A stretch of DNA of 29,317 bases from a virus: IMG/VR virus record IMGVR_UViG_3300044961_000944, positions 1 through 29,317 of that record; one strand, 5' to 3'. Of the stretch, positions 4,589-21,686 are shown in pieces; within the stretch, counting starts at the first letter, position 1, and every line of letters starts with the position of its first letter. The position numbers were made by a program, and so were the translations under genes. A model generated the notes under the pieces. It did no database searches. It worked only from the letters and a program-made list of their open reading frames with translations, and was not told where the DNA came from.

Positions 4589-4606
4589 CTCGTAACATGA
4601 TGAGTG

Positions 4607-4918: not shown

Positions 4919-5171
4919 GAGTGGCAACCTCAGTCATTTCGTCAAGTTAAGTCGATCTATCGTCTCGACCCAGGGTTACCGCACTACGAAGTCCTGATTG
5001 TGCAGGGATTTATGACATTTGGTGCTGAAAAGAGGCCAGTGATTCGACCTCGGCAACTCGGAATCGCTTGTTTTTCAGGCGTTTTCATAGTGCGGTGACC
5101 CTGCGTCTCGACCACAGGCGGGGCGGCAATCTGCACCATCCCAGGCTATGTTAGGAGTCTTGTCTCACAGA

Positions 5172-6269
5172 TCACGGCGCTCCGGGAAACGCAGTGACCA
5201 GCCGCCCGTCTGCTTCCGTGATGATCGTCATGATTGACGTCTGTCGTCCTGCGTTTCTGTCATATCCAATGATGCGTCCCACGTCAAAAGTTCTTGCGTA
5301 GCGTCCATTCGGTTGCCGAGTCATCGGCTGTTGGGTGCCACTGCGGATGAGAGCGGCGACGTCTTCACCAGCGTTGAACTTGCTCTTGTTGGCGAACTGC
5401 GGTAGTCCCGGAAGTGTATGCCGTTCGACTACATGCTGAAGCCCCTGGGGCGTGATGCGAATCGGAGGATTCAGCGCCGCAATGGGAGTGCCCGGCCGGC
5501 TGGCTGCGGCAGCCCGCGTCGCCGCTGCCGCTTCCTCGGCCGTCGCCGCCCGGTTCGCCGTGCTGTTCCACCACCCGCGGTTGGTCCAGACGAATTGCTG
5601 GCCGGCCGGGGACACCCAAGTCGGCCCGGCCGCCGTCCAGATCACGCCGACGTTGGCGAGCACCGCGGCGTCGCCCATCCCCTGCCGCCAGTTGCGGTCG
5701 AACGCCGGGTCGGCCACCCCGTAGGTGTTGCGGACCGACCACGTCCCGCCGCCCGACTGCATGACCGCGGCGAGTGGGTCGTACCGCCGCCGCTGGACCT
5801 CGTCGAGCCGGGCGTCCAGCTCCCGCCCCCGCCGCCACTCGCGGTAGTACTGGTACAGGTACTTCCCCGGGTACCAGACCATCCCGCTCGGGTCGGTGAG
5901 GGTGGTCGGCGTGTTCCCCACGTACCGGTAGAAGTTGGGATCGCCCGCCCCGATCCCGAGCGGGTCCTCGCCCAGGAAGCGGCCGGTGGCCGGGTCGTAG
6001 TAGCGGGCCCGGTAGTAGTAGACGCCCAGCTCGGCGTCGTACTCCCGGCCGGTGTACTTGAACCGGTCGCCCGCCGACGGGTTGGTCTCGCTCAGGACGT
6101 TGCCGAAGCTGTCGTAGGTGACCGCGTTCAGCACCGCCCCGGTCGGGCCGACCACCTGCCGCACCGAGTTGATGTTGTCCCGCAAGTACCACGCGGTGGT
6201 GCCGCCGGCGGCCACGCGGGCGAACAGCGCGTCGGGCTGGTTCGGGTCGGCCAGGTAGCGGGTTGTCAA
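5172..6269 (-). CDS. orphan Rhs C-terminal cassette 1 with EndoU/BECR-like toxin
   Basis: A 365-residue frame whose first usable codon is a TTG at 6269, inside the Rhs sequence itself (Ser-Leu-Thr-Thr-Arg-Tyr). It therefore has no proper start and is probably silent unless recombined onto a full Rhs gene. Residues 1-130 are the Rhs core, with GREYDAELGVYYYRARYYDP and the cleavage-site motif TDPSGM (Asp126-Met130). A Trp/Ala-rich linker follows. The last 95 residues carry His279 (LQHVVERH, with Arg283-His284), Lys-Ser-Lys-Phe at 295-298, FDVGRIIGYDRNAGRQTS and a terminal VTAFPG at 358-363. Two His residues, a central Lys and a terminal T-A-(Y/F)-P strand are what EndoU-type and related BECR-fold ribonuclease toxins show, so an RNase acting on a target cell's RNA is the best guess. 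Exact class is uncertain. Confidence 0.75.
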   Translation of the reverse strand: MTTRYLADPNQPDALFARVAAGGTTAWYLRDNINSVRQVVGPTGAVLNAVTYDSFGNVLSETNPSAGDRFKYTGREYDAELGVYYYRARYYDPATGRFLGEDPLGIGAGDPNFYRYVGNTPTTLTDPSGMVWYPGKYLYQYYREWRRGRELDARLDEVQRRRYDPLAAVMQSGGGTWSVRNTYGVADPAFDRNWRQGMGDAAVLANVGVIWTAAGPTWVSPAGQQFVWTNRGWWNSTANRAATAEEAAAATRAAAASRPGTPIAALNPPIRITPQGLQHVVERHTLPGLPQFANKSKFNAGEDVAALIRSGTQQPMTRQPNGRYARTFDVGRIIGYDRNAGRQTSIMTIITEADGRLVTAFPGAP

Positions 6270-6276
6270 AGAGCCG
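5895..6276. repeat. Rhs core direct repeat, copy in orphan cassette 1
   Basis: This 382-bp block aligns without gaps to 7922-8303 of the main Rhs gene and to the orphan 2 copy. The match breaks off on the right just after TGTCAAAGAGCCG, 53 bp earlier than the break of the orphan 2 copy. The different breakpoints show the two cassettes were displaced by separate events. On the left the match ends near the Asp-Pro codons of the cleavage motif. Confidence 0.9.
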
Positions 6277-6343
6277 GAGCGGATCAGTAGCTTCTGTTTC
6301 AGGCACTTCCATGAGGCGTATGATGGTCATCGGCCAAAGGGGC

Positions 6344-7165
6344 TCAGCCGGGAATTGATAACCTCTGTACCGTCAATAAAGCCTGCGAAAACTGCTTGCC
6401 CACAGGGAGAGGGTCACTTTCGTCATAACTGAAATAATAGAGGAGTCCATCTCGGGGATCAACGGTCAATACTCCGAATCCGTGCAACTCCGCCAGGAGG
6501 TAGTAATCACCTTGAGGCTGGTGAATGGCATAAATCTGTGTGAGACCAAGGACGGTCCAGTCGCCGACGGTCAAACCATCACACCTCTCTATAAGTTCGA
6601 TGTAGTCCTCTGGCAACTTCACGTCGAGCTGTTGCAGCAGTCGGTTTCGGCTATCATTATTGAGTGGCTCATATACTTCCGAGATCGAATTAGACACTTG
6701 ACTGATCCAGCTCGGTAGCTGGGGATTGACAGCCACCCGGCGAGCGTCTGCGCCCAGTGTGCCCTCCTGCATTGGATCGCAATTGATCTGAACCCGCTCG
6801 ATACGCGGGGCATCGCATCGCAGGATCTCGCCCGGAGGGGCGTCGAACAGAATCGAGAAGAAGAACCCTTGTACGAGAAAGAACTTGGCTACCCAATTCC
6901 TTTCGCTACTCGGACAGGAAAAGGTAATGGTTGCGAGCTGAACCTCCAGGCCATCGGCGGGGAACTGCAGTCGAGGATCACGACTGACAGCTCCCCGCTC
7001 CAGCGAGTAACAGCAGACCTCCCGACCGTTCGCGTGCCGCTGAACCAGGTTAACCCTCTGTAACTGTCTGGCGAGCAAGTCTGCAGCGTCAGTTCGCAGT
7101 TGCGTTTGCAGCTCACGCAGCAATGCGATCTCGAGAGGGCTGAACTTCGTCGACGACTGTACCAT
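6344..7165 (-). CDS. SMI1/KNR4 (SUKH) family immunity protein with extra N-terminal domain
   Basis: A 273-residue protein. The C-terminal part (about 180-265) carries the SUKH pattern LPEDYIELIERCDGLTVGDW, followed by LGLTQIYAIHQ and a segment with VLTVDPRDGLLYYFSYDESD. SUKH proteins are a well-known group of immunity proteins that bind and block toxins, often nucleases, delivered by contact-dependent or Rhs systems. The first about 170 residues (FSPLEIALLRELQTQLRTDA, then NLVQRHANGREVCCYSLERG) form a separate domain I do not recognise. Because it lies directly downstream of the main Rhs gene it should protect against that protein's own toxin. I chose the ATG at 7165, with GAGG 12 bases upstream; a GTG at 7243 is also in frame but has no good site. 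No membrane or signal segment is seen. Confidence 0.85.
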   Translation of the reverse strand: MVQSSTKFSPLEIALLRELQTQLRTDAADLLARQLQRVNLVQRHANGREVCCYSLERGAVSRDPRLQFPADGLEVQLATITFSCPSSERNWVAKFFLVQGFFFSILFDAPPGEILRCDAPRIERVQINCDPMQEGTLGADARRVAVNPQLPSWISQVSNSISEVYEPLNNDSRNRLLQQLDVKLPEDYIELIERCDGLTVGDWTVLGLTQIYAIHQPQGDYYLLAELHGFGVLTVDPRDGLLYYFSYDESDPLPVGKQFSQALLTVQRLSIPG

Positions 7166-7279
7166 ACCGGTGTAGAACCTCACACTTGCAACGGACCTCA
7201 ACCATTTTCCGTGTACTTGGCTGCCATCCGTCGGACGCAGCACTCCGGGTTGTCCAGGGAGGCCTTATCAGGATCTCAT

Positions 7280-10200
7280 TCACTCCTGTGGCCATGGGGA
7301 GGGTGGCCTGAACAAGGAGTTGACCCCGATCGATGCACCCCCATACCCGAGGCCGCCGAGACTACCTTGGGCCCAGTATGGCACACGCCTCCATTGCTGT
7401 ACGTACCAGGGCGGCATCGGGTTGGCCGCTTTCCACCAGCGCGGCATCATTCGGTAACGGAAGGGGTCGATCAGGGCATGCTCCGAACCCCACATCAGTT
7501 TAAGGTTCCACCGCTGCCAGCTCAGCCATTGAGGCAGGTATCGGTTTGGAATCCAGTGCGAACGCTCGACCCACTCGATGCCACGCGGGAATGCGGGGTT
7601 CGGGCGGGACATGCCCATCGCGAGGTTGGGCGCGCGAGCCGAGCGCCAAGCTCCACCAATTGCAATTGAGTGAAGCAAACCGAACGCTTCCCCACCGTGA
7701 TACCAGCCGGAGCGGTGATCCACGACATTGTCATATCCCATCCATCCCCGAGCATAGCTCGTCAGACCGAAGGAGAGGGTATCGGCATACCCGGCCGAGA
7801 AATTGCTGGCTTTCGCGAACCAGCCGGTGCGGTAGTCACCCAGGTAGTTGTCCCAGCTGCGGACGTTGTCCACTCCGATCCAGCCCGCGACGGTTTCGGC
7901 CCAGTCCAACCCCATCGGGTCAATCCGCCCGGTCGGCTGGTTGCCCACGTAGCGGTACAGGTTCGCGTCCCCGGCCCCGAAGCCCTTGGGATCCTCGCCC
8001 AGGAACCGCCCCGTCGCCGGGTCGTAGTAGCGGGCGCGGTAGTAGTAGATGCCCAGTTCCGCGTCGTACTCCCTCCCGGTGTACTTGAACCGGTCGCCGT
8101 CGGCCGGGTTGGTCTCGTTGAGAACCTTGCCGAAGCTGTCGTAGGTGATCGCGTTGAGCACCGTCCCCGTGGGGCTGACCACCTGTCGCACCGAGTTGAT
8201 GTTGTCCCGCAGGTACCACGCGGTCGTGCCGTTGGCGGCCACGCGGGCGAACAGCGCGTCGGGCTGGTTCGGGTCGGCCAGGTATCGCATTGTCAAAGAG
8301 CCGCTGCCGTCGAAGTCGGCGTAGGGGTTGACCCCATCATACACGGTCCAGAGTTGCACCGCCGCCTGCGGGCCGGGGCCGTCCGGGTCCACCCGCTTGC
8401 CGATCCTCCGGTCGCTCACGTCGTAGGTGAAGACCGTCTCCTGCAGCACCGTGCCGGACGCGTCCTTCACTACCACCCCGCTCAGCCGGTTGCGGTAGTC
8501 CCACACGAACTCGGTCCGCCGGCCGTCGGAGATGCGGGTCTTGGTGAGCGGGTTCCCCTCGTTGTCGTAGGTGTAGTTGTACGTGCCGTCGCTGGTCAGC
8601 CGGTTGCCCCCACCGGTCTGGTAGCCGGTCATCGTCCGGTTGCCGTTGGCGTCGTAGCTGTAGCCCTCGCTCCGCGCCCCCGACGCCCCGGTCAACTGGC
8701 TGGTCGCGTCGTAGTTGAAGTTGACCGTCCCCTCCGGCCCGGTGTAGCTCGTGAGCTGCCCGGCCGCGTCGTAGCCGTAGCTGAAGCTAGAGAGGGTGCT
8801 CCCACCCGAGCCGCCGGGCGAGTAGCCATGGGTGATCCCAATCAGCCGGTCTGCGTTGTCGTAGCTGAACGCGGAGTTGACCGAACCCGACTGGCCCGAT
8901 ACCTGCCGCGTGATGCCGGTCAGCCGACTGGCCGCGTCGTAGCCGAAGCCGACCTGCGGGCCAGGGTTGCCGGAGACGGTCAGCGATACCTGGCTCAAGC
9001 GCTGGGCGGCGTCGTAGCCGTAGGCGACGCTGCCGCCGAGGCCGTCCGACAGGCCCGTGCGCTTCCCGGCCGCGTCGTAATTGTAACCGAGGATGACGTT
9101 GGGCACGCCCGGCGTGCCGGCGTTGTTGACGCTCGTCAGCCGACCGGCCGCGTCGTAGCCATAGGCATAGGCCGAGTGCGGGTCGCTCGCCGAGACGAGT
9201 TGCCCGGCCGCGTCGTACCCGAAGCTCGCGGTGTAAATCGGCTGCCCCTGGCCGTTGAGCCACGTCTCGGCGGTCCGCCGCCCGGCGGCGTCGTAGCCGA
9301 AGGTGCGTTGCCGCCCGTTGCGATTCGTGACACCCGTCAGCCGGTCGGCGGCGTCGTAGGCGTACAGCGTCGCGTGGCTGAGCGGGTCGGTGACGCCCGT
9401 CAGCCGATCCGCGGCGTCGTAGGCGTACTGCCAGACGTTACCCACCGGGTCGGTGATCGAAGTCAGCCGCCCCGCGAGGTCGTAGGCGTAGCCGGTGACC
9501 CCGCTCAGCGGGTCGGTCGTTGATACCAGCCGGTTCTGCGGGTCGTAGGCGGAGAGGGTGGTGCGGTTCAGGGGGTCGGTCACACTGGTGCGATTCCCGG
9601 CCGCGTCGTAGCCGTAGCCGGTGGTCTGGCCCAGCGGGTCGGTGACGCTCACCAACCGGTCCCGTGCGTCATAGGCGTAGCCGGTGGTGTGCCCCAACGG
9701 GTCGGTCACGGCGGTCCGGTTCCCGGCCGCGTCGTAGGCGTAACCGGTGGTCTGGCCCAGTGGGTCGGTGTAGCGGATCAGCCGGTCGAGGGCGTCGTAG
9801 GCGTAGCCCCACGTCCCGCCGCCGGACCCCTGCTGCGCGGCGGCAAGGCGGTTGCCGGCCGCGTCGTAGGCGAAGGCCGACTGGTTGCCCAAGGGGTCGG
9901 TGACGCCCGCGAGCCAGCCCCGCACGGTGTAGGCGTAGTCGGTGGTGCGGCCCAGGGGGTCGGTCTGGGAGGCCAGCTGCCCGGCCGCGTCGTAGGCATA
10001 CGTCGTGGTGTGGTTCAGCGGGTCGGTGACGCCGGTGCGGCGGCCGGCCGCGTCGTAGGCGTAAAGCGTCTGGTGGCCCAGCGGGTTGGTGACGCTCGTC
10101 AGGTTCCCCGCGGCGTCGTAGCCGTAGCTCGTCGTGAAGTTGAGGGCGTTGGTGGTGCTCGTCAGCCGGTTGAGGTTGTCGTAGGCGGAACTGGTCGTGT

Positions 10201-13200
10201 GGTTCAGCGGGTCGGTGACGGACGTCTGGTTGCCCGCGGCGTCGTAGGCGTAGGTGTACTTCGGGTTGTTGTTCGGGTCGGCGTCGCCGTCGGGCAGGGT
10301 CGTCCGCGTCAGCCGGTTCAGGTTGTCGTAACTGAACGCCGTGACGAAGCCGCGCTCGTCGGTCCGGCCGGTCAGGTTGCCGGCCGCGTCGTAGGCGAAG
10401 AGCACCTTGGGGTTGTTGTTCGGGTCGCCGTCCCCGTCGGGGTAGGTGACCTGCGTCAGCCGGTCCAGGGCGTCGTAGGCGTAGAGCGTGACCCGGCCGA
10501 GCGGGTCGGTCGTACTGCCGACCAGCCCGTCGGCCGTGTAGGTGAAGCCGGTCACCGGGGCGGTCAGCGGGCCGGCCCCGTCGGGGTCGGGCCGGGTGAT
10601 GCTCGTCAGGTTGCCATTGGAGTCGTAGGCGTAGGTCGTCGTGCGGCCCAGTGGGTCGGTGGCCTGCGTGACCTGGCTGAAGCCGTTGTAGGTGAACTGC
10701 TGGGTGTTGTCGTCGGGCAGGTAGGTCTTGGTCGGGTTGCCCTTGCTATCGAAGGCGCTGACCGCGCGGCGGCCGAGCGGGTCGGCCCCCATCCAGGCCA
10801 GCCCGTTGGCGTTGCGGTGGACGACCGCCATGTCGCCCAGGGGGTCGGCCGCCTGGCTAGCCTGCCCGAAGCCGAGCCAGTCCAGGCGGGTCTGCCAGGC
10901 GTTGCCGCGCGGGTCGGTGTAGTCGGCCAGCGCTTCCACCGCCAGCACCGGCGCGGCCGGGTTGCTCTGCGAGCCGGACGGCGGCACGGCGAGCCCCTGA
11001 AGTTGCAGCGCCGTCAGCTGCTCGGTGGTGCCGTCCGGCCGGGTCGCGGTCGCCGCCCGACCCGCGAAGTTGTACGCGAACGTGGTGGTCTTCGACCGCG
11101 GGTCGGTCAGCGAGGTCAGCCGGTTGGCAGTGTCGTAGGCGTAGGACCACACGGGCGAGGCCAGCGGCCCCGCACCGTCCGGGTCGGGGTCGGTGATCGA
11201 GGTCAGCCGGCCGGAGCCGTCGTACCCCAGTTGGGTCACCCGCCCCGCCGGGTCGGTGATCGTGCTGACCCGGCCGTTGCCTCCGTAGGCCAGTTGGGTG
11301 GCCAGCCCGTTGGGGTCGGTGACCGCGGTCAACCGACCGCTGCCGTCGTAGGAGAAGCCGGTCGTATTGTTGTTGCGGTCCACGACCGCGGTCTGCCGCC
11401 CGGCCGAGTCGAAGTGGACCTTGGTGCCGTCCTTGAGGGTGCGGGTGTAGGTGTTGTCGGGGTTGCGGACCAGCGTCGAGAAGTCGCCCGCCGGGGTGAC
11501 GAACGTCCCGGACTGCTGCCCGTCGGCGAACCACAGGCTAATACCGCCCGGCGACTCCAGGATCATGCCGCCGGTCACCGGCCGGAGGCGCTCCACGCCG
11601 GCGAGCGACCAGCCGGCCCCGAACGGGCTGGAGGCGGAGTTGACGATGGTCACCTGGCCGCTGTAGTTGGTCGTCACCGGCGTCGGGTAGTGGGCGGTGA
11701 CGGCGATCTGGTAGCTGTAGCGGCCGGTCGGCAGGGCGGTGGCGTCGCCCTGGAGGGCGATCTGCAGGACGCCACCGGGGTTGAGCAGCGCCGTGTCGTA
11801 GTAGACGGTCGGGCCGGCCACGCCGTTGAGCGTCAGTTGGGCGCTGACCGTGGCGGGCACGGCTTGGGAAGGATCGAGCGTGTACCGGGTCAGGAAGATC
11901 GGGCGGGGGTCGGCCGCCGTGGAGCTGTAAACGAGCTGGTGCGGTGGCACGCCGGGGTTGTACGCGGGCAGGGTGTGGCCGGTCTGCACCTCGCCGGTCG
12001 CCAAACCGAGACTGTAATTCGGCCCGCCGACGACTTCCTGCCGGCTGGTGACGGCGTCTGGGGTGACGACGGTCGGCCAGGTGCTGGCGCTGGTGGGGCC
12101 GGTGTAGGAGCCGCCCGAGCCGCCCGACCCACCGCCGATGTAGCCGAGGTCGGAGGCGACCTGGGTGCCGGCCACCTGGAAGGCCAGCGTCTGGGTGAAC
12201 TGCGTGCTGTCCGCGTTCGTGGTCGTGATGCGGATGGTGTTCGTGCGGGCCGGACCCTGGAACGATGCCCATTTGAACTGGAGGCGGTAGCTGTTCTGGC
12301 CGGTGACGTTGACCGCGTCAGGAGCCTCGCTCAGGTCCCAGCTGTAGCTCGACACGGCGGCCCCGGAGACCTGGGCGCGCAGGTCCACCGACCAGCCGGA
12401 GAACTCGTGCTCGACGACCCCCGGCGTCACGACGATGGCGTCGTTGGCGTCCAGCACCCAGAGCGGGTCGCCCGACGGGCCTTCCAAGTTGAGCGGCCCG
12501 AAGAACGAGAACTCGCCCCCGGAGAGGCCGCCGGAGAACAGCCCTCCCGACATCCCAGATTGGGTGCCGCTGGAGAACGCGGTGACCGAGGCGAGTCCGA
12601 ACCCTCCGTCCTGCGAGCCGGTGGACCCGTCGGACGTGGCGGAGGCGTCGGTTTGCCGCGCCGGGGACACCGTGAGCGGCCCGACGGTGCCGAAAGAACT
12701 CCCGATGATCGCGTTGGCATCCCCGCCCTCGAACGGCCGGATGAGGCCGTGCGGGCGAGGGGCCGGAACGTCCGCCCCGAGTCCGCCTGCCGTGGCCGAG
12801 GCTGAGAGGAGGCCGTCACTCCCGGCGCCCGCGCCGCCACCAGCCGAAGCTTGTCCCGGCGTGGGGGCAGAAGCGGAAGAACCGCCGAAGGCGAGCAGGC
12901 CATCGAGCAGGTCGCGGTCCAGGCCAATGGCGTCACCGAGGCGAAGCCCCGCCAGCGCTTGCGTCCCGGACCAGCCCTCCCGGTTGCCGTTCTGAGCAGA
13001 TGAGCCGGGATTCCACCGCTCCTGGTTCCCATACGCCAGGAAGTGGGTCATGGTGCCGGGCGGGGTGACGCCGCGGCGAGCCGGCTCGTCGGCGGTCCAG
13101 TGATCCGTCGCCTTCCACGGCCGCGCCGGCCCGGTGCTGCGACCGACCGGGATGAGCAGGTCGTCCCCGAAGATGAGTGCGTCGGGCCGCAGCAAGAGCG

Positions 13201-13324
13201 GCTGGCCCAGCAGTTCGAGGACGCTGCCGGGGACGCTGCGGTCCTCCAGTTGGTGGAGGGTCGGGGTGGCGTTGAGGTTGAACTGGCGAACGCGGGTGCG
13301 AGTCCGGGGCTTCCGCAGCTTCAT
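7280..13324 (-). CDS. giant Rhs/YD-repeat protein with C-terminal toxin
   Basis: A 2014-residue protein starting at the ATG at 13324, with GGAG seven bases upstream. Residues about 1-45 are basic and contain LHQLEDRSVPGS, the LEDR-type motif of planctomycete exported proteins. Residues about 45-400 are Gly/Ser/Pro-rich, 410-610 look like beta-domain sequence, and 620-1650 hold roughly 40 YD repeats (pattern YAYDAAGRLTSVTDPLG), which form the beta-cage shell that encloses the toxin. The core (about 1655-1806) ends with IDPMGL at 1801-1806, the usual self-cleavage site. The remaining 208 residues begin with a linker shared with orphan cassette 2 (SAGYADTLSFGLTSYARG) and end in a Trp-rich toxin domain with SHWIP and GSEHALIDP motifs, His-containing and nuclease-like but unassigned. 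The SUKH gene downstream is the likely immunity partner. No secretion system is visible here. Confidence 0.95.
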   Translation of the reverse strand: MKLRKPRTRTRVRQFNLNATPTLHQLEDRSVPGSVLELLGQPLLLRPDALIFGDDLLIPVGRSTGPARPWKATDHWTADEPARRGVTPPGTMTHFLAYGNQERWNPGSSAQNGNREGWSGTQALAGLRLGDAIGLDRDLLDGLLAFGGSSASAPTPGQASAGGGAGAGSDGLLSASATAGGLGADVPAPRPHGLIRPFEGGDANAIIGSSFGTVGPLTVSPARQTDASATSDGSTGSQDGGFGLASVTAFSSGTQSGMSGGLFSGGLSGGEFSFFGPLNLEGPSGDPLWVLDANDAIVVTPGVVEHEFSGWSVDLRAQVSGAAVSSYSWDLSEAPDAVNVTGQNSYRLQFKWASFQGPARTNTIRITTTNADSTQFTQTLAFQVAGTQVASDLGYIGGGSGGSGGSYTGPTSASTWPTVVTPDAVTSRQEVVGGPNYSLGLATGEVQTGHTLPAYNPGVPPHQLVYSSTAADPRPIFLTRYTLDPSQAVPATVSAQLTLNGVAGPTVYYDTALLNPGGVLQIALQGDATALPTGRYSYQIAVTAHYPTPVTTNYSGQVTIVNSASSPFGAGWSLAGVERLRPVTGGMILESPGGISLWFADGQQSGTFVTPAGDFSTLVRNPDNTYTRTLKDGTKVHFDSAGRQTAVVDRNNNTTGFSYDGSGRLTAVTDPNGLATQLAYGGNGRVSTITDPAGRVTQLGYDGSGRLTSITDPDPDGAGPLASPVWSYAYDTANRLTSLTDPRSKTTTFAYNFAGRAATATRPDGTTEQLTALQLQGLAVPPSGSQSNPAAPVLAVEALADYTDPRGNAWQTRLDWLGFGQASQAADPLGDMAVVHRNANGLAWMGADPLGRRAVSAFDSKGNPTKTYLPDDNTQQFTYNGFSQVTQATDPLGRTTTYAYDSNGNLTSITRPDPDGAGPLTAPVTGFTYTADGLVGSTTDPLGRVTLYAYDALDRLTQVTYPDGDGDPNNNPKVLFAYDAAGNLTGRTDERGFVTAFSYDNLNRLTRTTLPDGDADPNNNPKYTYAYDAAGNQTSVTDPLNHTTSSAYDNLNRLTSTTNALNFTTSYGYDAAGNLTSVTNPLGHQTLYAYDAAGRRTGVTDPLNHTTTYAYDAAGQLASQTDPLGRTTDYAYTVRGWLAGVTDPLGNQSAFAYDAAGNRLAAAQQGSGGGTWGYAYDALDRLIRYTDPLGQTTGYAYDAAGNRTAVTDPLGHTTGYAYDARDRLVSVTDPLGQTTGYGYDAAGNRTSVTDPLNRTTLSAYDPQNRLVSTTDPLSGVTGYAYDLAGRLTSITDPVGNVWQYAYDAADRLTGVTDPLSHATLYAYDAADRLTGVTNRNGRQRTFGYDAAGRRTAETWLNGQGQPIYTASFGYDAAGQLVSASDPHSAYAYGYDAAGRLTSVNNAGTPGVPNVILGYNYDAAGKRTGLSDGLGGSVAYGYDAAQRLSQVSLTVSGNPGPQVGFGYDAASRLTGITRQVSGQSGSVNSAFSYDNADRLIGITHGYSPGGSGGSTLSSFSYGYDAAGQLTSYTGPEGTVNFNYDATSQLTGASGARSEGYSYDANGNRTMTGYQTGGGNRLTSDGTYNYTYDNEGNPLTKTRISDGRRTEFVWDYRNRLSGVVVKDASGTVLQETVFTYDVSDRRIGKRVDPDGPGPQAAVQLWTVYDGVNPYADFDGSGSLTMRYLADPNQPDALFARVAANGTTAWYLRDNINSVRQVVSPTGTVLNAITYDSFGKVLNETNPADGDRFKYTGREYDAELGIYYYRARYYDPATGRFLGEDPKGFGAGDANLYRYVGNQPTGRIDPMGLDWAETVAGWIGVDNVRSWDNYLGDYRTGWFAKASNFSAGYADTLSFGLTSYARGWMGYDNVVDHRSGWYHGGEAFGLLHSIAIGGAWRSARAPNLAMGMSRPNPAFPRGIEWVERSHWIPNRYLPQWLSWQRWNLKLMWGSEHALIDPFRYRMMPRWWKAANPMPPWYVQQWRRVPYWAQGSLGGLGYGGASIGVNSLFRPPSPWPQE
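7922..8356. repeat. Rhs core direct repeat, copy in the full-length gene
   Basis: Reference copy of the repeated core, from the Asp-Pro codons of the cleavage motif to codons for VQLWTVYDG. It encodes the RHS-repeat-associated core. The orphan copies at 5895-6276 and 4091-4525 align to it without insertions or deletions. All three copies have the same orientation, so recombination between them would delete the intervening DNA and put a different toxin tip on the Rhs protein. Confidence 0.9.
8640..11400. repeat. degenerate tandem YD-repeat coding DNA
   Basis: Within the Rhs gene the DNA is built from many units of about 60-65 bp, each containing a variant of GCCGCGTCGTAGGCGTAG (plus-strand view; codons for YAYDAA). 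Units differ in length where insertions such as GDGDPNNNP occur at about 10260-10300 and 10410-10440. The most regular units lie between about 9300 and 10250. Such arrays are prone to unequal crossing-over, and this part may be hard to assemble from short reads. Confidence 0.85.
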
Positions 13325-13743: not shown

Positions 13744-14976
13744 TTACGCGGGACCGGCTCGGCCCGCAACCCCCGCGAAAAACGCCTCGTAGTGCGGCCC
13801 CAGCCGCTCGGGCCGCCACGCCTCCGCAGCCCTTCGGCACCGCTGCCGCTCGGCCTCGTAAGCCTCGGTGTCGTCCCACAGCCGGATGATCGTGTCCATC
13901 CAAGGCGCGACCTCCTCCGGCGTCGGCACCAGGCGCGATTCCGGCGTGTAGTGCGCGGGGACGTCGAACAAGAAGCCGGCTTGTTCCAGTAACTCGGGCA
14001 GCGCACCCCGGCGGCTGGCCAGCACCGGGATGCCGTTGGCCAGGGCCTCGGCCGCGACCAGGCCGAACGACTCGTTCCACAGCGACGGCATGAGCACCAG
14101 GCGGCTGACCCGGTAGAAGTCCCGCGGGTCCGGCGTGTTCGCCATGACGCGCAGGTTGCCCGGCCCCGTCAGGTCCAGGCCGGTGCGGTGCAGCCAGTCG
14201 GCCCGGCCCCGCCCCTCGACGACCAGGAGCGGAATGTCCGGTCGCCGCCGCCCCAGTTCGTGGGCGATCCGGGCGAATACGAACACCCCCTTGTGGGGCT
14301 GCGGGTTGACGAACGTCGCGTACCGCCCCCCGACCTCCATGCGTAGGAAGCGCGACCAGTCCAGGGGATGCGGCAGTGCCGTGCAGTCCAGGCCGAGTGA
14401 GCGGCGGTAGTAGTCTTGGGCGAACCGCGAGGGGACGAGGACGGCGTCCACTGACCGGAAGAAGGCGGCGTCGGTGTAGGCGAAGTTGTGTAGCCCGAAG
14501 ACGACCGGGACGCCCTGCCGTTTGGTACAGGCGATGACCTCCGCGGCCAGCCAGTGTCCGCCGTAGGTCAACAGCGCTTCGGGCCGGAACGTCTCCAGCA
14601 CCCGTTCCAAGAGCGCGAGGAACGGGAGCCCTTCCGCCCCGGTGGGCACGCCGGCACGTGCGGCGGAGGGTGTGTAGATCGTGACCGGGATGCCGGCCTG
14701 CTCGAATTGCAGGAGCGTGAAGGGGGTCGGGCCGGCGGCGCACGGGCGGCTGACCCAGCGGATGCCCTGGTCACTCAGAAGCTGCGGGAGGGACTCCCCC
14801 GCCTCGAAATCCAACTGCGGGCCGCAGAGAACCCGGCACTGCCACCCCCTGGCGGCGAGCATCCGCAGCAGGTCGCGGGTGGCCAGTGCCGCCCCGCTGG
14901 AGGGGTCGAGGTAGCAGTGGTACGAGGCGAACAGCAGCCGCCCGGGTCGCCGTTCCACCGCAGGACCATCAGCCAT
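13744..14976 (-). CDS. GT4-type (GT-B fold) glycosyltransferase
   Basis: A 410-residue protein with its ATG at 14976 and GAGG six bases upstream. The N-terminal half has LLFASYHCYLDPSSGAALAT and RDLLRMLAARGWQCRVLCG, the acceptor-side pattern of GT-B enzymes that starts with a Gly/Ser-rich loop. The C-terminal half has YATFVNPQPHKGVFVFARIA and, around residues 299-314, NESFGLVAAEALANGIPVLA, the E-x7-E motif that binds the nucleotide sugar in GT4 enzymes. LPELLEQAGFLFD follows. No membrane segment is seen, so it is cytoplasmic or loosely membrane-bound. The donor and acceptor are unknown. It lies 57 bases after the FkbM-type methyltransferase on the same strand, the last gene of a three-gene sugar-modification set that follows the phage tail operon. 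Confidence 0.9.
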   Translation of the reverse strand: MADGPAVERRPGRLLFASYHCYLDPSSGAALATRDLLRMLAARGWQCRVLCGPQLDFEAGESLPQLLSDQGIRWVSRPCAAGPTPFTLLQFEQAGIPVTIYTPSAARAGVPTGAEGLPFLALLERVLETFRPEALLTYGGHWLAAEVIACTKRQGVPVVFGLHNFAYTDAAFFRSVDAVLVPSRFAQDYYRRSLGLDCTALPHPLDWSRFLRMEVGGRYATFVNPQPHKGVFVFARIAHELGRRRPDIPLLVVEGRGRADWLHRTGLDLTGPGNLRVMANTPDPRDFYRVSRLVLMPSLWNESFGLVAAEALANGIPVLASRRGALPELLEQAGFLFDVPAHYTPESRLVPTPEEVAPWMDTIIRLWDDTEAYEAERQRCRRAAEAWRPERLGPHYEAFFAGVAGRAGPA

Positions 14977-15033: not shown

Positions 15034-15873
15034 TCATCCTATCGACTTCCCGAGCCAGAGCGTCCAGTGCTCCTGCCGCCGGGCGAGGATCGTTCCGGGA
15101 TCGGCCGGGACGATGGCGCCCTCGTAGTTGACGCACCGGAGCGGATAGCCGGCCCGTTCGATCTCGTGCAGGAGGCCGACCGCCTGCGGCGGGTCGCGCT
15201 GGAGGTGCAGCTCGAGGACGACGGCGGCCTGCGGGAAGCGCCGCAAGGTGTCTTGCATCCCTTCCCAGACGAGGGCTTCCGCTCCCTCGGCGTCGATCTT
15301 GACCAGGTCGAGGCGCGGCCAGTCGGCGCAGAGCCGGTCGAGAGTGATCGCCGGCGCTTGCACGGACCCGGAGCGGTGCGCGTAGGCCCAGCGCTCCAGC
15401 GACGAGGTGGCGAAGTCACCGTCGTGCAGGACGAAGTCCACGGTTTGGTCGTCGCGGTTGCCGACGACCGTCGGGCAGATCTCGACGCCGTGGTAGAAGC
15501 CGTTCAGCGCCAGGTTCTGCGGCAGGTACGTTTCGGCCAGGAGCGGGTTCGGCTCGCAGGCCACGACCCGCCCCTCGGGGCCGCAGGCGGCGGCCATCAG
15601 CAGCGTGTAGTAGCCGTAGTTCGCGCCGACGTCGACGCACCGCATGCCCGGCCGCAGATGCCGGGCGACGGCGACCGTCACCCACGACTCCCAGAACCCG
15701 TCCAACACCAGCCGCGGGCCGAGCATCAGGTCGCGTGCGTCCACGAAGACCAGGAAGTCGCCGAGCAGCCGACAGAGCAAGCGGTGGTCGCCGTAATAGA
15801 CGCCGGCGGCCTTGCGACGGCTGACCTCTTCCAAGTCGGCGCGGCTGGACAGAACGTGCGACGGCAGCGGCAT
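15034..15873 (-). CDS. FkbM-family methyltransferase
   Basis: A 279-residue protein. The ATG at 15873 is chosen because GGAGG lies seven bases upstream; the frame is open further but that part overlaps the preceding gene. The S-adenosylmethionine-binding motif CVDVGANYGYYTLLMAAACG is at about residues 76-95, with ACEPNPLLAETYLPQNLALN (motif II) after it and DLVKIDAEGAEALVWEG near 188, the signature of the FkbM family. These enzymes O-methylate hydroxyls of sugars or small molecules. The start lies two bases after the stop of the GT71-like gene (TGA-TC-ATG), so the two are co-translated, which points to methylation of the sugar that enzyme adds. No signal peptide or membrane segment. The specific substrate is inference. 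Confidence 0.9.
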   Translation of the reverse strand: MPLPSHVLSSRADLEEVSRRKAAGVYYGDHRLLCRLLGDFLVFVDARDLMLGPRLVLDGFWESWVTVAVARHLRPGMRCVDVGANYGYYTLLMAAACGPEGRVVACEPNPLLAETYLPQNLALNGFYHGVEICPTVVGNRDDQTVDFVLHDGDFATSSLERWAYAHRSGSVQAPAITLDRLCADWPRLDLVKIDAEGAEALVWEGMQDTLRRFPQAAVVLELHLQRDPPQAVGLLHEIERAGYPLRCVNYEGAIVPADPGTILARRQEHWTLWLGKSIG

Positions 15874-15875
15874 GA

Positions 15876-17186
15876 TCAGGCCTCCAGGGGAATGAACTCG
15901 ATCGGCATGCGCTCGTGTTCGAGCCATTGCCCGTGCCAGGAGCCGTCGCCGTTGCGCCGCAGGTGACAGGTCGGGCGGTCCAGCCGGCTGAGGGTGAGGA
16001 TCGCGTGGCCGTCGTCGACGTTCACGTCCCAGCGGCGCTCGCACTCGGCCGCGCCTTCCCCGACTTTCCGCGCCGGCTCCAATCGCATGGGCCGCTCGTC
16101 GTGGCCGACCCGGCGGTACAGGAAGCGCCGGCCGGTCAACCCTTCGATGACCTGGTGTTCTTCGGGGGTCGGATCGGGGTTGTGCCAGAGGACGCCGTCC
16201 CAGCGCTTGCGCAGGTCGGCCACGAGGTTGAAGCACAGCTCCTCGTTGGCCAGCGAGTTGTTCCGCCGGTTGCCGCCGCCGATCTTCCACTTGTCCTGGC
16301 AGCGGTGGTTGAACATCTGCCGGCCGCGGAAGTCCCACTGGACGATGGTGTGTTGGTTCCAGCCGGGTGCCCTGGCCGGCATCGCGTAGTCGCTGCCGAG
16401 CCTGCGCCAGCCGAGGTGGAAGCACTCCTTGTCGCCGTAGACGACCCGGAACACGAAGTCCGAATGCTCGGCGTACCACAGCGCCATCCGCAGCTCGCGC
16501 CAGCAGCGAGTCTTGTTGATCAGGTACTGGCCGCTCTCGAACGCCACCTCGCTCTGCCAGCGGGCGGCGACCTCCGGGATGTCGAAGATCTCCCACACGT
16601 CGCGCTTGAGTTGCCAGCAGGCGTAGTCGGGCCAGAAGATCGCCCCCTTCTCCAGGTACTCCGGCCAGGAGAAGACCTCCGTGACATCACGGCACGGCCC
16701 GCAGTCCGCGTCGAGGAACAGAACCTCCTCGAACGGGGAGTGCAGCGTGGAGAACGGCTTCAGTTCCCAGCCGCACAGAATCCGGCAGGGGTGCTCCTTC
16801 TCGACCTCGCGGGCATCGACGCATTCGACGCCGAGCGGCTTCAGGAGTCGGCGCAGGTAGGGGTCGATCTCGCCGGTGCCGAGGTGCCAGAGCTGGATCG
16901 GCAGCGTGCAGCCGAAGTGCCGGATCAGGTTGACCCCGACCCAGACGCTGGGGAAGTACTTCAGCCCGCCGCCGGCGATGACGATGCCGCGCCCTTCCGA
17001 ATAGGCGTGCCGGGCCGGCGTCAGCGTGTCGGCGAATCGCCGCGCCATGACGCGGTGGGCCTCGTTGACGTTGGCCCACCCGGCCCAGCCCGGCGGCCAC
17101 GGGCCGGGCGGGGCGTGCTCGATGAGGTGGATCATCTCGTCCACCGTCATGTCTTGACGTGCCGAAGTTGGGCTGAGTTGCGCCAT
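15876..17186 (-). CDS. putative glycosyltransferase, alpha-mannosyltransferase (GT71)-like
   Basis: A 436-residue protein starting at the ATG at 17186 with AGGAG six bases upstream; that site overlaps the TAG of the gene before it. Residues 66-105 (GRGIVIAGGGLKYFPSVWVG, then IRHFGCTLPIQLWHLG) and 138-165 (CGWELKPFSTLHSPFEEVLF ending in L-D-A-D-C) match the layout of the MNN1/GT71-type mannosyltransferase family, in which D-x-D (Asp159-Ala-Asp161) binds the metal and nucleotide sugar. Later, FESGQYLINK and the His-rich NQHTIVQWDF complete the domain. The last about 90 residues contain a separate beta-rich tail ending HGQWLEHERMPIEFIPLEA. No signal peptide is seen. The sugar is not proven to be mannose. 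It is coupled to the Ser-Gly-rich protein upstream and the FkbM gene downstream. Confidence 0.8.
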   Translation of the reverse strand: MAQLSPTSARQDMTVDEMIHLIEHAPPGPWPPGWAGWANVNEAHRVMARRFADTLTPARHAYSEGRGIVIAGGGLKYFPSVWVGVNLIRHFGCTLPIQLWHLGTGEIDPYLRRLLKPLGVECVDAREVEKEHPCRILCGWELKPFSTLHSPFEEVLFLDADCGPCRDVTEVFSWPEYLEKGAIFWPDYACWQLKRDVWEIFDIPEVAARWQSEVAFESGQYLINKTRCWRELRMALWYAEHSDFVFRVVYGDKECFHLGWRRLGSDYAMPARAPGWNQHTIVQWDFRGRQMFNHRCQDKWKIGGGNRRNNSLANEELCFNLVADLRKRWDGVLWHNPDPTPEEHQVIEGLTGRRFLYRRVGHDERPMRLEPARKVGEGAAECERRWDVNVDDGHAILTLSRLDRPTCHLRRNGDGSWHGQWLEHERMPIEFIPLEA

Positions 17187-17195
17187 CGACCACTC

Positions 17196-18320
17196 CTACA
17201 CGTCTTCCACGGGGATCGGGACGGGACTGCCGGTGATCATGCCCGTCCCCTGGCCCGAATCGCCGCCTGAACCGGAGGCTTTCCCCGACACCCGGGCGCT
17301 GCCGGAGCCGTCGCCGGAACTTGAATCACTGCCCGACCCGCTGCCGTCGGCGGGGCCGCTGTCCGAGCCGGAACCCGAACTGCCTTCCGACGCCGATCCG
17401 GAACCCGACCCGGAGGCGGTGGGGCCGGGCACCGACCCACTTCCGGGCGTCGAGCCGCTGCCGCTGCCCGAGCCGGGGTGCGATCCCGACGCGGAGACCG
17501 ATCCCGGGCCGGAGGCGCTGCCGCTGCCCGCGCCACTCGCGCTGCCCGACCCGGCGGCGCTGCCGGACGATCCGCTCGCCCCGCTCGATCCGGGCGAGCC
17601 GCTGGCGCTGCCCGAACCGCTCTCGCCGCTCAGCGAGCCGCCCGAGCCGCTCGCGCCCGAGCTGCCTCCGCTGGAGGCGCTGCCGCCCGATCCCGACGAG
17701 CCGCTCGGGCCGGACCCTTCGCCGGAAGACCCGCTCGCGCCCGACCCGCCCGAACTCCCACCCGACGAGGCGCTCTCGCCCGAGGAACCGCTGGCCCCGG
17801 AGCCTTCCCCGGACGACCCGCTCTGGCCCGAGCTGTCTCCGGACAGACCGCTGTCGCCCGACGACCCGCTGAGACCGGAGCTCTGGCCGGACGAGCCGCT
17901 GAATCCGGAACTCTCGCCGGAGGAGCCACTCACGCCGGAGCTGTCTCCCGATGAGCCGCTTTCCCCCGATGAGCCGCTGAACCCCGAGCTGTCTCCCGAC
18001 GACCCGCTCTCGCCCGAGCCACTGGAACCGGAGGAGCCGCTCGAACCGTCCTGGCAGCACCCCAGCGCGTACACCGGCACGCCCTCCGGCGTCATGCCGA
18101 CGAAGCGCATCAGGTAGCGGCCGATGCGCGGGAACTCACAGGTCGAGTAGCCGTAGAGCGGCGTCCCACCCGCGAGGCCGAGGAAACGTGCCAACACGCG
18201 CGGCACCTTGTTCTCGAACGCGGCCGGCCCCGACCCCGAACCGGGGCAGCCCAGCGCGAACAGCGGCGTGTCGCCGGTTCGGCCCACGAAGCACGCCAGG
18301 TATCGCTGCGATGGAATCAC
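17196..18320 (-). CDS. Ser-Gly-rich fibre-like phage protein with three FVG repeats
   Basis: A 374-residue protein that starts with a GTG at 18320 overlapping the TGA of the gene before it (GTGA, 4-base overlap). The first 90 residues hold three related units: RYLACFVGRTGDTPLFALGC (6-25), RVLARFLGLAGGTPLYGYST (41-60, Cys at 61) and RYLMRFVGMTPEGVPVYALG (69-88, then Cys-Cys). Each ends near a Cys. From about residue 92 to 355 there is almost nothing but Ser and Gly (GSSGESGSSGDSSG type), with Asp/Glu/Ala/Phe sprinkled in, then the tail MITGSPVPIPVEDV. No signal peptide is visible. Its place at the end of the tail operon suggests a fibre, tip or decoration protein; the Ser-rich tract is a natural target for O-glycosylation by the enzymes encoded directly after it. 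Function is inference. Confidence 0.75.
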   Translation of the reverse strand: MIPSQRYLACFVGRTGDTPLFALGCPGSGSGPAAFENKVPRVLARFLGLAGGTPLYGYSTCEFPRIGRYLMRFVGMTPEGVPVYALGCCQDGSSGSSGSSGSGESGSSGDSSGFSGSSGESGSSGDSSGVSGSSGESSGFSGSSGQSSGLSGSSGDSGLSGDSSGQSGSSGEGSGASGSSGESASSGGSSGGSGASGSSGEGSGPSGSSGSGGSASSGGSSGASGSGGSLSGESGSGSASGSPGSSGASGSSGSAAGSGSASGAGSGSASGPGSVSASGSHPGSGSGSGSTPGSGSVPGPTASGSGSGSASEGSSGSGSDSGPADGSGSGSDSSSGDGSGSARVSGKASGSGGDSGQGTGMITGSPVPIPVEDV

Positions 18321-19000
18321 TGGTTGACGTCCACCACCTTGCACGCGAACAGCGTCTGCCACGTCTTCGTCGCCGCGTCGTAGCGCTGGACCTCGCCGGG
18401 GTAGTAGCCGTCGGCGTCGGGCACGTTGCCGGTGACGAGCACGTGCGCCTGGAGGTCGCCGTCGTCGAGGCGCACGACGGCCCAGCGTTCGATAGAGCCG
18501 CTTGGTTCGACCCACAGCACTCGCGCCGAACCGTGCGGCACGTTCCGCAGCCAACCCGTCTGGTCGAGTTCGACCGCCGCAAAGTCGTACAGTTGCGCGG
18601 GATCGACACGCAGTTTCACCGGCGTCACGCCGGCCACAACGCCCCGACCGACCGCGTTCGCCGCGAGCGGTTCGAGCAGAATCGCGAACCGCTCGCGCTT
18701 CGCCGGGTCAGTTGGCTTCACGCCGTCGAACGTGACTTTGTTCTGGAACTCTTGGAGGTTGTCCGTCGGCGTGATGACCGGCGCGTTGAGCGCGACCACG
18801 GCAAAGCGACCGAGATCCTCACCGGACGCGTTCCGCACTTTGACGATGCCCGTCTGCCGGAACGCGGCATCTTCGTCACGCTCGGTCTCGTGGAGTCGCC
18901 CCCGCGCGAACCGGGCCGCGTCGAGGAACGCGTTGTACGCCGCCGCCGGGATCTCCAGCCGCTGGCCGGGCGTTACGTTCTTGAACGGATCGCCGGGCAT
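18317..19000 (-). CDS. phage structural-type protein, unassigned
   Basis: A 227-residue protein from the ATG at 19000, ending in the TGA shared with the GTG of the next gene. It begins MPGDPFKNVTPGQRLEIPAA, with AYNAFLDAARFARGR next. The rest is beta-rich (VKVRNASGEDLGRFAVVALN, then VVAGVTPVKLRV and WAVVRLDDGDLQAHVLVTGN), with repeated Gly-bounded strands and no membrane segment or enzyme motif. That composition and its place between a tail-type protein and the Ser-Gly-rich protein suggest a structural component of the tail end. I do not recognise a named family. It starts one base after the stop of the gene before it. Confidence 0.7.
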   Translation of the reverse strand: MPGDPFKNVTPGQRLEIPAAAYNAFLDAARFARGRLHETERDEDAAFRQTGIVKVRNASGEDLGRFAVVALNAPVITPTDNLQEFQNKVTFDGVKPTDPAKRERFAILLEPLAANAVGRGVVAGVTPVKLRVDPAQLYDFAAVELDQTGWLRNVPHGSARVLWVEPSGSIERWAVVRLDDGDLQAHVLVTGNVPDADGYYPGEVQRYDAATKTWQTLFACKVVDVNQ

Positions 19001-19001
19001 G

Positions 19002-19838
19002 TCAGGCTCCGATCCCGAGGAGCGCGAAGTTGCCCGGCTCGTAAACTCGCTCGATGTAGACCGACTCCGGTTGTTTCACGAGCACTTTCTGGTCTTCCAC
19101 GTCGCCGTAGCGCACCCAGAGATACTCCCACCCCTTCTTGTTGATGTTCTGGATGTCGCCGACCTGGAGGTTGACCGCGTTCGGGCTGGCCGCGAACTGG
19201 TACGTGATCTCCCACTTCTCCAGTCCGCGACGCGAACCAGACGCGCCCAAGAACAACACCTCGCCGGCCGCGAAGCCCTTGAACGGTGCGTTGTTCACCT
19301 TCCCCGTCAGGCTGAAGACCGTCAGCTTGTAGCCGTGCGTGACGAGCGCCACCGGGATCGAATACGCTTCGGAGAAGCGGAACACCGGCACGGTGATGTC
19401 GGTCCCCTCGACCGAGTCGTTGTTGAAGCCGACTGCCCCCTTGAGATCAGGTGCGACCTTGCCCGGCTTGGTGTGCTTCGCCACCGTCTGGAGAGACTGC
19501 GTGACGTGCTGGGTGCCGCCCGACGTCTCGAACGTGTAACTCGGGCCGAGCGGCGTTTCGGGCGTGACCGGTTCGCCGCCGCCGGGCGGGGGTTCGCCGG
19601 CCAGTGGTTCCTCGCGCCCGTACCGCACCGACACGTCCCATACCCCGCCGCCCTTGTGGTCGATGTGGTAGTTCTGGAAGACCATTCCCCGGAAGATGGC
19701 CGGGATCGTCGCCTCGACCAGCGCCCGCACGTCGAGGTCACTTTCGGTGCCCAGCACGGCAAACGACAGATCGACCGACGGGCTATCCGGCCCGACCGTC
19801 GCCCCGCCGCTGTCGAACTTCTCGATGATGATCGCCAT
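19002..19838 (-). CDS. phage tail-region structural protein, unassigned
   Basis: A 278-residue protein starting at the ATG at 19838, with GAGG ten bases upstream. The N-terminus (MAIIIEKFDSGGATVGPDSP) leads into FAVLGTESDLDVRALVEATI and a segment with WDVSVRYGREEP. A Pro/Gly linker (GEPPPGGGEPVTPETPLGPS) separates this from a C-terminal half with YTFETSGGTQHVTQSLQTVA and several beta strands ending in a VQVGD-like stretch and the tail YEPGNFALLGIGA. No enzyme motif or signal peptide. Two-domain beta proteins at this position, right after the tape measure gene, are usually distal tail or baseplate components in siphophages; that is a positional guess. Twelve bases separate it from the tape measure stop. 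Confidence 0.7.
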   Translation of the reverse strand: MAIIIEKFDSGGATVGPDSPSVDLSFAVLGTESDLDVRALVEATIPAIFRGMVFQNYHIDHKGGGVWDVSVRYGREEPLAGEPPPGGGEPVTPETPLGPSYTFETSGGTQHVTQSLQTVAKHTKPGKVAPDLKGAVGFNNDSVEGTDITVPVFRFSEAYSIPVALVTHGYKLTVFSLTGKVNNAPFKGFAAGEVLFLGASGSRRGLEKWEITYQFAASPNAVNLQVGDIQNINKKGWEYLWVRYGDVEDQKVLVKQPESVYIERVYEPGNFALLGIGA

Positions 19839-19850
19839 CGGGGGAAAGCC

Positions 19851-21686
19851 TCACGCGAAGACCAGCCCGCCGTGAACGGCCGCGACCGCGATCTTCTTGA
19901 CGTTGTCGTTGATCTGATCGACCGCCTTCGCCGTGCGCTCGTTGAGCGATTCGCCGCCCAGCCCGCGCACCGCCAGCGCGTTGAACGTCCCCTGCACATC
20001 GACCTTCTTGGACAGGTCAATCACCTCGTCGAGCGAGGACATCGACCCGGACTTGGCCTTCGGCGGCACGCGCGGAGCGGCCTCGTCGCGTTTGCGTTCT
20101 GCTTCCTTCACCGCGTCGCGGAGTTCGTCGGCGGCCTTCTTCACGTCGTTCATGGCTTCGGCGGCGTCCGCGCGGCGAGCGTCGTTGGCTTCGCGCTGCC
20201 GGCGCGCCCGCTCGTCGAGGATCTGGTTCTTGATCCGGTCGCGGTTGCGGTTGATGTTCTCGTCGGAGAAGTCGAAGTTCTCGCGGAGCTTCCGGGCGAA
20301 CGTCTCGAACCCGAGTTTGTCCGCGACCCAGGCGGCGGCCTTGAAGAGCTTCTCGATGGCGAACGCGAACGTGCGGGCGATCCAGGCGGTGAAGTCCCAG
20401 AACATGAGCTTCAACCCGGCCACGACATCGTGCCAACCGTCCACGAAGATGCCCTTGAAGGCGTTCCACTTCTCGGTCCACCACAGCACCGCCTTGGCCC
20501 ACTCGAGGTTGACGGCGGCGAGCGCGATCTTGGCCGCCAGCTCCAGGTCGCCGGCCTGGATCGCGGCGACGATCCCGCCCCAGGCGGTCTTCGCCGTCTC
20601 GGCAAAGCTCATGAACCCCGCACTCAACTCGTCCGTCATCCGCGTCCCGGCGTCGGTCTGGGTGGCGAACAGATAACCCAGGCCGACCAGGGCCGCGACC
20701 ACCAGGCCGATCGGCGACAGGAGCGCCCCGAGGACGGAGCCGACGACCCCGATGACCGCGCCGAGCGCCGAGAAGACGGTGACCAGTCCGCTGATCGCGA
20801 AGCCCGCCAGACTGACGAACGCGCCGAGCGCGACGAGGGCCGCGCCGACGCCCAGGACGACCGCGACGAGCTTGGCGATCGAGACGACCAGGCCGCGGTT
20901 GCGGTCGATCCACTCGGACACGTCGCGCGAGGTGGTGATGATCCAGTTGGCCAGTTCCATGAGCGACGGCACGAGCGCCGCCCCGACGGAGAACGCGCCG
21001 CGCTTGATCACCTTCCAGAGCACGTCGAGCGTGTCGCCGAACTCCTCGGCGGCCGCCGCGTCCTCGGTCGAGATGGTCAGCCCGAGCTTGCGGGCCTTCT
21101 CCTGGAGGGCCTCGATCCCGGCCGCCCCGTCGTTCATCAGGGGCAGGAGCTTCGTCCCCGACTTGCCGAAGACGTCCATCGCCAGCGCCGCCCGCAGGGT
21201 CGGGTTCTCGACCTTGCTGAGCCGCTCGGCGAAGAGCTTGAACTGCTCGTCGGGCGCGAGCGCCTTCAGATCGGCGACTGTGAGGTTGAGTTTTCCCAGC
21301 GCATCGCGGGCCGCCTTGGAGCCGTCCGCCGCTTCGACGACGAACTTCTGCATCTTCCGCAGGCCGGCCTCGAGCGTTTCCATGTCCGCGCCCGACTGCT
21401 CGGCCGCGAACCCCAACTCCGAGAGCGCCTCGACCGAGACGCCGGTCCTCTGGCTCATGTCGATCAGGTCGCTGCCCAGGTCGGTGAAGACCTTCGCGGC
21501 CAGCACGAACGGCGCGGCGAAGGCGGCACCGACGCCGAGCAACTGCGTGCCCAAGCCCGTGATCCCCGCGCCGAACGCCTTCAACTTGGCGGCCGCGGCG
21601 GCGAGTCCGCGCGTCAGCCGGTTGTCCTTGACGAACAACTCGACGTAGGCCGCACCTGCGCGAATGCCGCCCGCCGACACCGCCAT
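19851..21686 (-). CDS. phage tail tape measure protein
   Basis: A 611-residue protein from the ATG at 21686, three bases after the stop of the frameshifted chaperone frame. The start (GAAYVELFVKDNRLTRGLAA) and MSQRTGVSVEALSELGFAAE, SGADMETLEAGLRKMQKFVV and LAMDVFGKSGTKLLPLMNDG segments match the N-terminal domain of tape measure proteins of the TP901/lambda type. Residues about 265-342 are a long hydrophobic stretch with several membrane-like helices (IAKLVAVVLGVGAALVALGA), also standard. The C-terminal third is charged and coiled-coil-like (RARRQREANDARRADAAEAM). The protein fixes tail length and enters the host membrane on injection. At 611 residues it predicts a tail at the short end for a siphophage, if length follows the usual rule. 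Confidence 0.93.
   Translation of the reverse strand: MAVSAGGIRAGAAYVELFVKDNRLTRGLAAAAAKLKAFGAGITGLGTQLLGVGAAFAAPFVLAAKVFTDLGSDLIDMSQRTGVSVEALSELGFAAEQSGADMETLEAGLRKMQKFVVEAADGSKAARDALGKLNLTVADLKALAPDEQFKLFAERLSKVENPTLRAALAMDVFGKSGTKLLPLMNDGAAGIEALQEKARKLGLTISTEDAAAAEEFGDTLDVLWKVIKRGAFSVGAALVPSLMELANWIITTSRDVSEWIDRNRGLVVSIAKLVAVVLGVGAALVALGAFVSLAGFAISGLVTVFSALGAVIGVVGSVLGALLSPIGLVVAALVGLGYLFATQTDAGTRMTDELSAGFMSFAETAKTAWGGIVAAIQAGDLELAAKIALAAVNLEWAKAVLWWTEKWNAFKGIFVDGWHDVVAGLKLMFWDFTAWIARTFAFAIEKLFKAAAWVADKLGFETFARKLRENFDFSDENINRNRDRIKNQILDERARRQREANDARRADAAEAMNDVKKAADELRDAVKEAERKRDEAAPRVPPKAKSGSMSSLDEVIDLSKKVDVQGTFNALAVRGLGGESLNERTAKAVDQINDNVKKIAVAAVHGGLVFA

Follow-up and report, generated by a model that had tools for sequence, protein, structure and literature searches.

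A Ser-Gly-rich, tail-fibre-like protein coupled to a GT71-like glycosyltransferase and an FkbM methyltransferase: a candidate virion-modification cassette of planctomycete phages

The IMG/VR virus record IMGVR_UViG_3300044961_000944, analysed here in its entirety as a single window of 29,317 bases, carries a gene for a Ser-Gly-rich protein immediately ahead of genes for a GT71-like glycosyltransferase and an FkbM methyltransferase. The minus strand holds a siphophage-type structural run, identified with PHROGs as portal, head protease/major head, major tail and tape measure. The tape-measure gene (19851..21686; PHROGs tail length tape measure, 1.1e-44) is the first of a tail-tip module and is followed downstream, all on the minus strand, by p278 (19002..19838, cluster c2), p227 (18317..19000, cluster c3), the Ser-Gly gene, GT71, FkbM and a GT4 glycosyltransferase, in that order. 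Both p278 and p227 are conserved tail-module genes, the former at a position shared with relatives and the latter in synteny across IMG/VR loci. PHROG and PDB profile searches gave no match for p278, and PDB profiles gave none worth following for either protein, so their tail role is assigned by synteny.

The junctions between these genes are tight. The p227 stop overlaps the GTG start of the Ser-Gly gene (CAGTGATT), whose own TAG stop lies 9 nucleotides before the GT71 ATG, with an AGGAG ribosome site overlapping that stop (TAGGAGTGGTCGATG). Only 2 nucleotides separate the GT71 stop from the FkbM start (TGATCATG). Both spacings, and the overlapping ribosome site, had been given in a preliminary description of this DNA made without database searches, and reading the junctions confirms them. 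That description also counted the GT4 gene into the block. It does follow FkbM, after 57 nucleotides, but at 13744-14976 (minus strand; Pfam PF00534/PF13439) it falls outside the 15034-18320 segment and is best treated as accessory. Immediately behind the siphophage-type tail module, the Ser-Gly protein, GT71-fold enzyme and FkbM are encoded in one closely coupled operon.

The Ser-Gly protein (17196-18320, minus strand, GTG start, TAG stop) is 374 amino acids long. Three parts of the protein can be told apart across relatives: an N-terminus of ~90 residues, a stalk measuring about 60-500 residues, and a C-terminal tip that can be exchanged. The N-terminal domain of the window protein (18057..18320) comprises three Cys-bearing repeats of ~25 amino acids (RYLxxFVG...PLYAxxC), conserved in relatives and recovered by profile hits. 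The stalk (residues 89-368, 17217..18056, with the gene ending at 17196) contains 117 Ser and 93 Gly among 280 residues; the repeats reported in the preliminary description are therefore present, at a length nearer 280 than its 260 residues. The tip is absent from the window protein and is of several unrelated kinds in relatives.

Throughout the clade of close relatives (described below), Ser accounts for 34-55% of the stalk, Gly spacing varies between 2, 3 and 4, and there is little Lys/Arg or Thr. Ser codons in the window stalk are mixed (72 TCN and 45 AGY) and all four Gly codons are in use. These mixed codons, together with a Ser density kept despite shifting Gly spacing, rule out a DNA microsatellite as the origin of the region. 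Nor is the frame a shadow of the antisense open reading frame (ORF) at 17233-18117: it is real, because its N-terminal domain is conserved across independent contigs. With Ser density constant, Gly spacing shifting and codon use free, the dense Ser array appears to be the conserved property of the stalk.

A collagen register (GXY) is ruled out for the window stalk, where 16% lies in runs of at least 5 triplets and the longest run is 5; the protein has no match to Pfam Collagen (PF01391), by which a collagen-like fibre would be recognized. The GSS-triplet stalks of two relatives from Pirellula-type phages (L106 and L107) do pass that profile. The structure model of a tipped relative, L096, has a disordered stalk and a confident β-sandwich tip. 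The best structural matches to this tip score modestly; among them are carbohydrate-binding modules, C1q-like heads and a phage short-tail-fibre binding domain. The tip may be carbohydrate-binding-like in relatives. From its modular build and its place downstream of the tape measure, the Ser-Gly protein looks like a tail-tip fibre, and we infer that it is present in the virion.

The GT71-like glycosyltransferase (15876..17186, minus strand) matches PF11051 (Mannosyl_trans3) at 101.6 bits against a cut-off of 22 (E 6.5e-29). A structure search with its model (predicted local distance difference test, pLDDT, 89.8) returned the yeast GT71 mannosyltransferase MNT2 as the top match (Z 21.2, root-mean-square deviation 3.6 over 293 residues), followed by glycogenin (Z 16.4), with GlyE listed at about 14. 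MNT2 is also the best PDB sequence-profile match (E 0.008). The enzyme thus has a GT-A fold closest to a GT71 structure and shares with MNT2/MNN1 a DxD metal motif and a His/Lys motif. The former is DAD (residues 159-161, 16704..16712), invariant in 19 aligned relatives; the latter is HRCQDKW (residues 294-300, 16287..16307), with H294 and K299 invariant in aligned relatives, which we take to resemble the second metal/nucleotide motif of GT8-type enzymes. The window enzyme differs from MNT2 in sequence (only 13% identity) and in possessing an extra C-terminal domain (residues 336-432, 15891..16181) without a Pfam name.

Two relatives, L027 and L131, have this C-terminal domain in duplicate, and in L010 it is detached. 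There, a small gene (L010:2179-2877; L101) fuses it to a cyclic-phosphate-processing receiver domain (cREC, PF20274). The enzyme runs on into a second, GT8-like domain in L014-L016 and, in L027 and L039, into a GT2 domain and then a part that by eye resembles a sulfotransferase. Such fusions suggest that some phages use the locus to assemble more than one sugar. The L027 (8001-11060) and L039 proteins, with a duplicated C-terminal domain, GT2 and sulfotransferase-like end, would be multi-domain glycan-building proteins. The FkbM methyltransferase (15034..15873, minus strand) matches PF05050 at 68.1 bits against a cut-off of 22.7 (1.3e-18).

We scanned the GT71-like protein against IMG/VR and GTDB genome contigs, obtaining 96 distinct loci after 97% dereplication. 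Relatives with at least 55% identity fall into a single clade (98% support) of 38 distinct loci, all of phage or prophage. Where a host is named, it belongs in most cases to Planctomycetota (Isosphaeraceae, Gemmatales, Pirellula); one contig is binned as Verrucomicrobiae. A Ser-Gly ORF lies directly upstream of GT71 in 31 of the 38. Of the other seven, two are cut by the contig end (L117 and L123), one has just 785 bases of upstream sequence (L051) and four are decayed, with broken glycosyltransferase and/or FkbM frames (L056, L059, L065 and L077). Every intact, untruncated member has the Ser-Gly protein just upstream, and FkbM comes next wherever there is room. The recurrent order is tape measure, p278, p227, Ser-Gly, GT71, FkbM; past FkbM, gene content varies from phage to phage. 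The four-gene block sought in other phage and prophage loci is ruled out, since the window GT4 has no relative in any other fetched locus; as judged by this comparison, the conserved set is the Ser-Gly, GT71 and FkbM genes, and conservation ends after FkbM. The Pirellula-phage group carries an additional 183-amino-acid gene of no known family between Ser-Gly and GT71 (L012:7445-7996 and relatives).

The reverse test, starting from p227 (54 IMG/VR loci), returned the same association. All loci with more than 2 kb downstream have both Ser-Gly and GT71 genes, except L170 and L212. A rearrangement in L170 took out the two genes together; as one rearranged stretch spans both, the locus cannot be used as a natural co-loss of stalk and enzyme. 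L212 is a 32% relative with short Ser/Gly linkers, then a GT71-like gene. Hosts seldom carry GT71 of the window type: at E 1e-20 it occurs in 3 of 392 Planctomycetota genomes, including the genome taken as the centre. Comparison thus strongly supports the proposed link of a Ser-rich, tail-fibre-like protein to a glycosyltransferase and FkbM, the clade being paired wherever this can be judged. Enzymes without a Ser-rich protein, which the preliminary description held would speak against the link, are confined to decayed prophages and distant relatives (below 50% identity), with no intact close relative among them.

Among those distant relatives, 10 of 27 phage loci have a Ser-rich ORF no more than 5 kb upstream, against 1 of 31 chromosomal loci (Fisher p 0.0016, a test that ignores phylogeny), and FkbM is close downstream in 7 of 27 versus 0 of 31. 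No Ser-rich ORF is found within 5 kb downstream in the distant phage loci, some of which have little downstream sequence. The pairings occupy several separate places on the tree, and distant GT71-like enzymes of phages turn up repeatedly near Ser-rich proteins of different kinds where the same tail genes are missing. The N-terminal motif of the Ser-Gly protein is carried by L128 and L133 and is missing from the other distant Ser-rich partners. At the Ser-Gly gene's place before the distant GT71-like gene of L158 (2741-5461) is a 906-amino-acid protein with GGSGYTxAPTV-type repeats. As an unbiased control we took 80 viral loci chosen only by a GSS-repeat DNA pattern. A few of their GSS proteins precede glycosyltransferases of other families: GT4 and GT25 with 2-oxoglutarate (2OG)-oxygenase domains in L234, GT4 in L258 and L272, and Anp1 in L298. 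The L234 arrangement (4510-7525), a GSS-repeat phage protein, a 194-amino-acid ORF and a GT4-GT25-2OG-oxygenase fusion, is reminiscent of collagen hydroxylation and glycosylation.

The remainder of the record includes a third glycosyltransferase, of family GT2 (1369-2142; PF00535, 1.1e-29), far from the tail operon. A DUF2924 protein at the left end (3-485; 3.6e-44) suggests that the phage region may span the whole contig. INPHARED gave no named-phage match. Behind a 2014-amino-acid RHS-repeat protein (7280-13324) come two RHS-tip-like ORFs, which repeat the end of that protein's core (RYLADPNQPDALFARVAA), as well as an ORF with weak SUKH-like (immunity-type) character (coordinates of the remaining RHS/SUKH-like ORFs, 5172-6269, 3260-4588 and 6344-7243). 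Together these are possibly a polymorphic-toxin cassette inside the phage record.

Through the tail module, the glycosyltransferase is genetically linked to a virion structural gene, the arrangement looked for in self-glycosylation. On the most economical reading, which on comparative grounds we think probable, the Ser-Gly stalk encoded next door is the target of both GT71 and FkbM. We likewise favour, with some confidence, the view that the phage uses enzymes of its own to O-glycosylate and O-methylate the stalk of its tail fibre. The N-terminal repeats would anchor the Ser-Gly protein at the tail tip, with the unstructured stalk projecting outward and, in many relatives, a receptor-binding-like tip at its end. 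In the infected cell, the GT71-like enzyme would move a sugar from a nucleoside diphosphate (NDP)-sugar, plausibly GDP-mannose, onto the dense stalk serines, or extend a sugar there. FkbM would next O-methylate the stalk sugar, and fused GT8-like or GT2 domains may lengthen the glycan in some relatives. Such a coat of sugar might make the stalk stiffer, shield it or mask it, much as in the glycosylated stalks of serine-rich adhesins. A bolder version, which we advance only tentatively, makes the GT71-fold enzyme an initiating protein O-glycosyltransferase. With FkbM it would build O-methylated glycans directly on the Ser-Gly stalk (longer, possibly sulfated, in some relatives), giving a mucin-like fibre that is spread across planctomycete phages and has arisen repeatedly in unrelated phages.

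Several observations weigh against stalk glycosylation. The close relatives form one lineage, so much of the Ser-Gly/GT71 pairing could be inherited synteny. GT71 occurs in just 1 of the 80 control loci, that one being a family member; a GSS repeat alone therefore does not predict GT71 or glycosylation, and Ser-Gly stalks do not need GT71. Some distant phage GT71-like enzymes, such as that of L158, adjoin proteins that are not Ser-rich. We rejected the C-terminal domain as a stalk-recognition module: its association with Ser-rich partners among distant relatives (uncorrected p 0.0002) is not significant in a phylogeny-aware test, a conclusion unaffected by L212 having been entered there with two labels swapped. 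Finally, the characterized GT71 enzymes MNN1 and MNT2 add outer mannoses, extending glycans and not starting on peptide.

This known activity argues for a sub-case of the favoured reading, in which the stalk does carry glycans but the first sugar on Ser is placed by a host enzyme or by the window GT4 or GT2, the part of GT71 being limited to extending it. Further glycosyltransferases are indeed present in the contig. The isolation of the window GT4 argues the other way, since it means that, GT71 aside, no phage-borne initiator is conserved, and we rate extension by GT71 as possible, short of likely.

The preliminary description had itself offered an alternative, that the enzymes alter the host surface, modifying lipopolysaccharide or other envelope glycans and so excluding competing phages. 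FkbM enzymes act on polysaccharides too, and GT4 and GT2 genes lie elsewhere in the contig. A host-surface role is also the published reading for phage glycosyltransferases beside tail fibres, as in the host-recognition clusters of pelagimyophages (PMC7029224; mention in PMC10202952). Here, however, GT71 and FkbM stay tied to the Ser-Gly gene within a late tail operon, and remain constant where the downstream cargo varies. Pfam and PHROGs scans of neighbouring genes, some small ORFs being unscanned, named no Gtr-type flippase or lipid-carrier transferase. Because the enzymes are bound to the stalk gene and not to variable cargo, we consider a host-surface role unlikely. An unmodified flexible or collagen-like spacer, with GT71 and FkbM targeting another virion protein (p227, p278 or the major tail protein), is decidedly improbable: GSS-repeat proteins without GT71 are frequent in viral contigs and two relatives' stalks pass Pfam Collagen, but the window stalk is not GXY collagen, and the distant enzymes sit near different Ser-rich proteins in the absence of these tail genes.

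Stalk modification of this kind would have several parallels. Serine-rich repeat adhesins (for example, PsrP with GlyE) combine a dense Ser-rich stalk, a binding head and adjacent glycosyltransferase genes, and GlyE is among the structural matches of the window enzyme. Those adhesins are bacterial surface proteins that use accessory secretion and other glycosyltransferase families, whereas the protein here belongs to a phage; we noticed no accessory secretion genes in the record, although no search was aimed at them. Collagen-like phage fibres and glycosylated bacterial collagens (BclA) likewise pair a Gly-rich repeat stalk with a variable tip, but the window stalk is Ser-based, outside the GXY register, with little Pro and almost no Thr.

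A further close parallel is virion glycosylation in the mycobacteriophages Che8, Rita and relatives, where phage-encoded enzymes are likewise thought to modify the phage's own structural proteins (PMC11256854, citing Freeman et al. 2023). As summarized there, modification is reported on major capsid proteins, whereas the present case, in phages of uncultured planctomycetes, would pair a GT71-fold enzyme and its constant companion FkbM with a Ser-Gly stalk at the tail tip. On that account, virion glycosylation by phage enzymes is already known and the Ser-Gly/GT71/FkbM arrangement would be a variant of it. Within the open-access literature we found nothing on planctomycete phage glycosyltransferases.

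Few phages are known to have glycosylated proteins, and pairing an enzyme with its acceptor protein is usually hard; here, an enzyme lies next to its likely substrate, the two genes are coupled, and the arrangement is conserved in some thirty distinct phage loci. If the favoured reading is true, these phages would carry a fibre glycosylated in mucin-like fashion by two dedicated enzymes, and other cases of glycosyltransferases beside tail-fibre genes, usually read as host-surface modifiers, would deserve re-examination.

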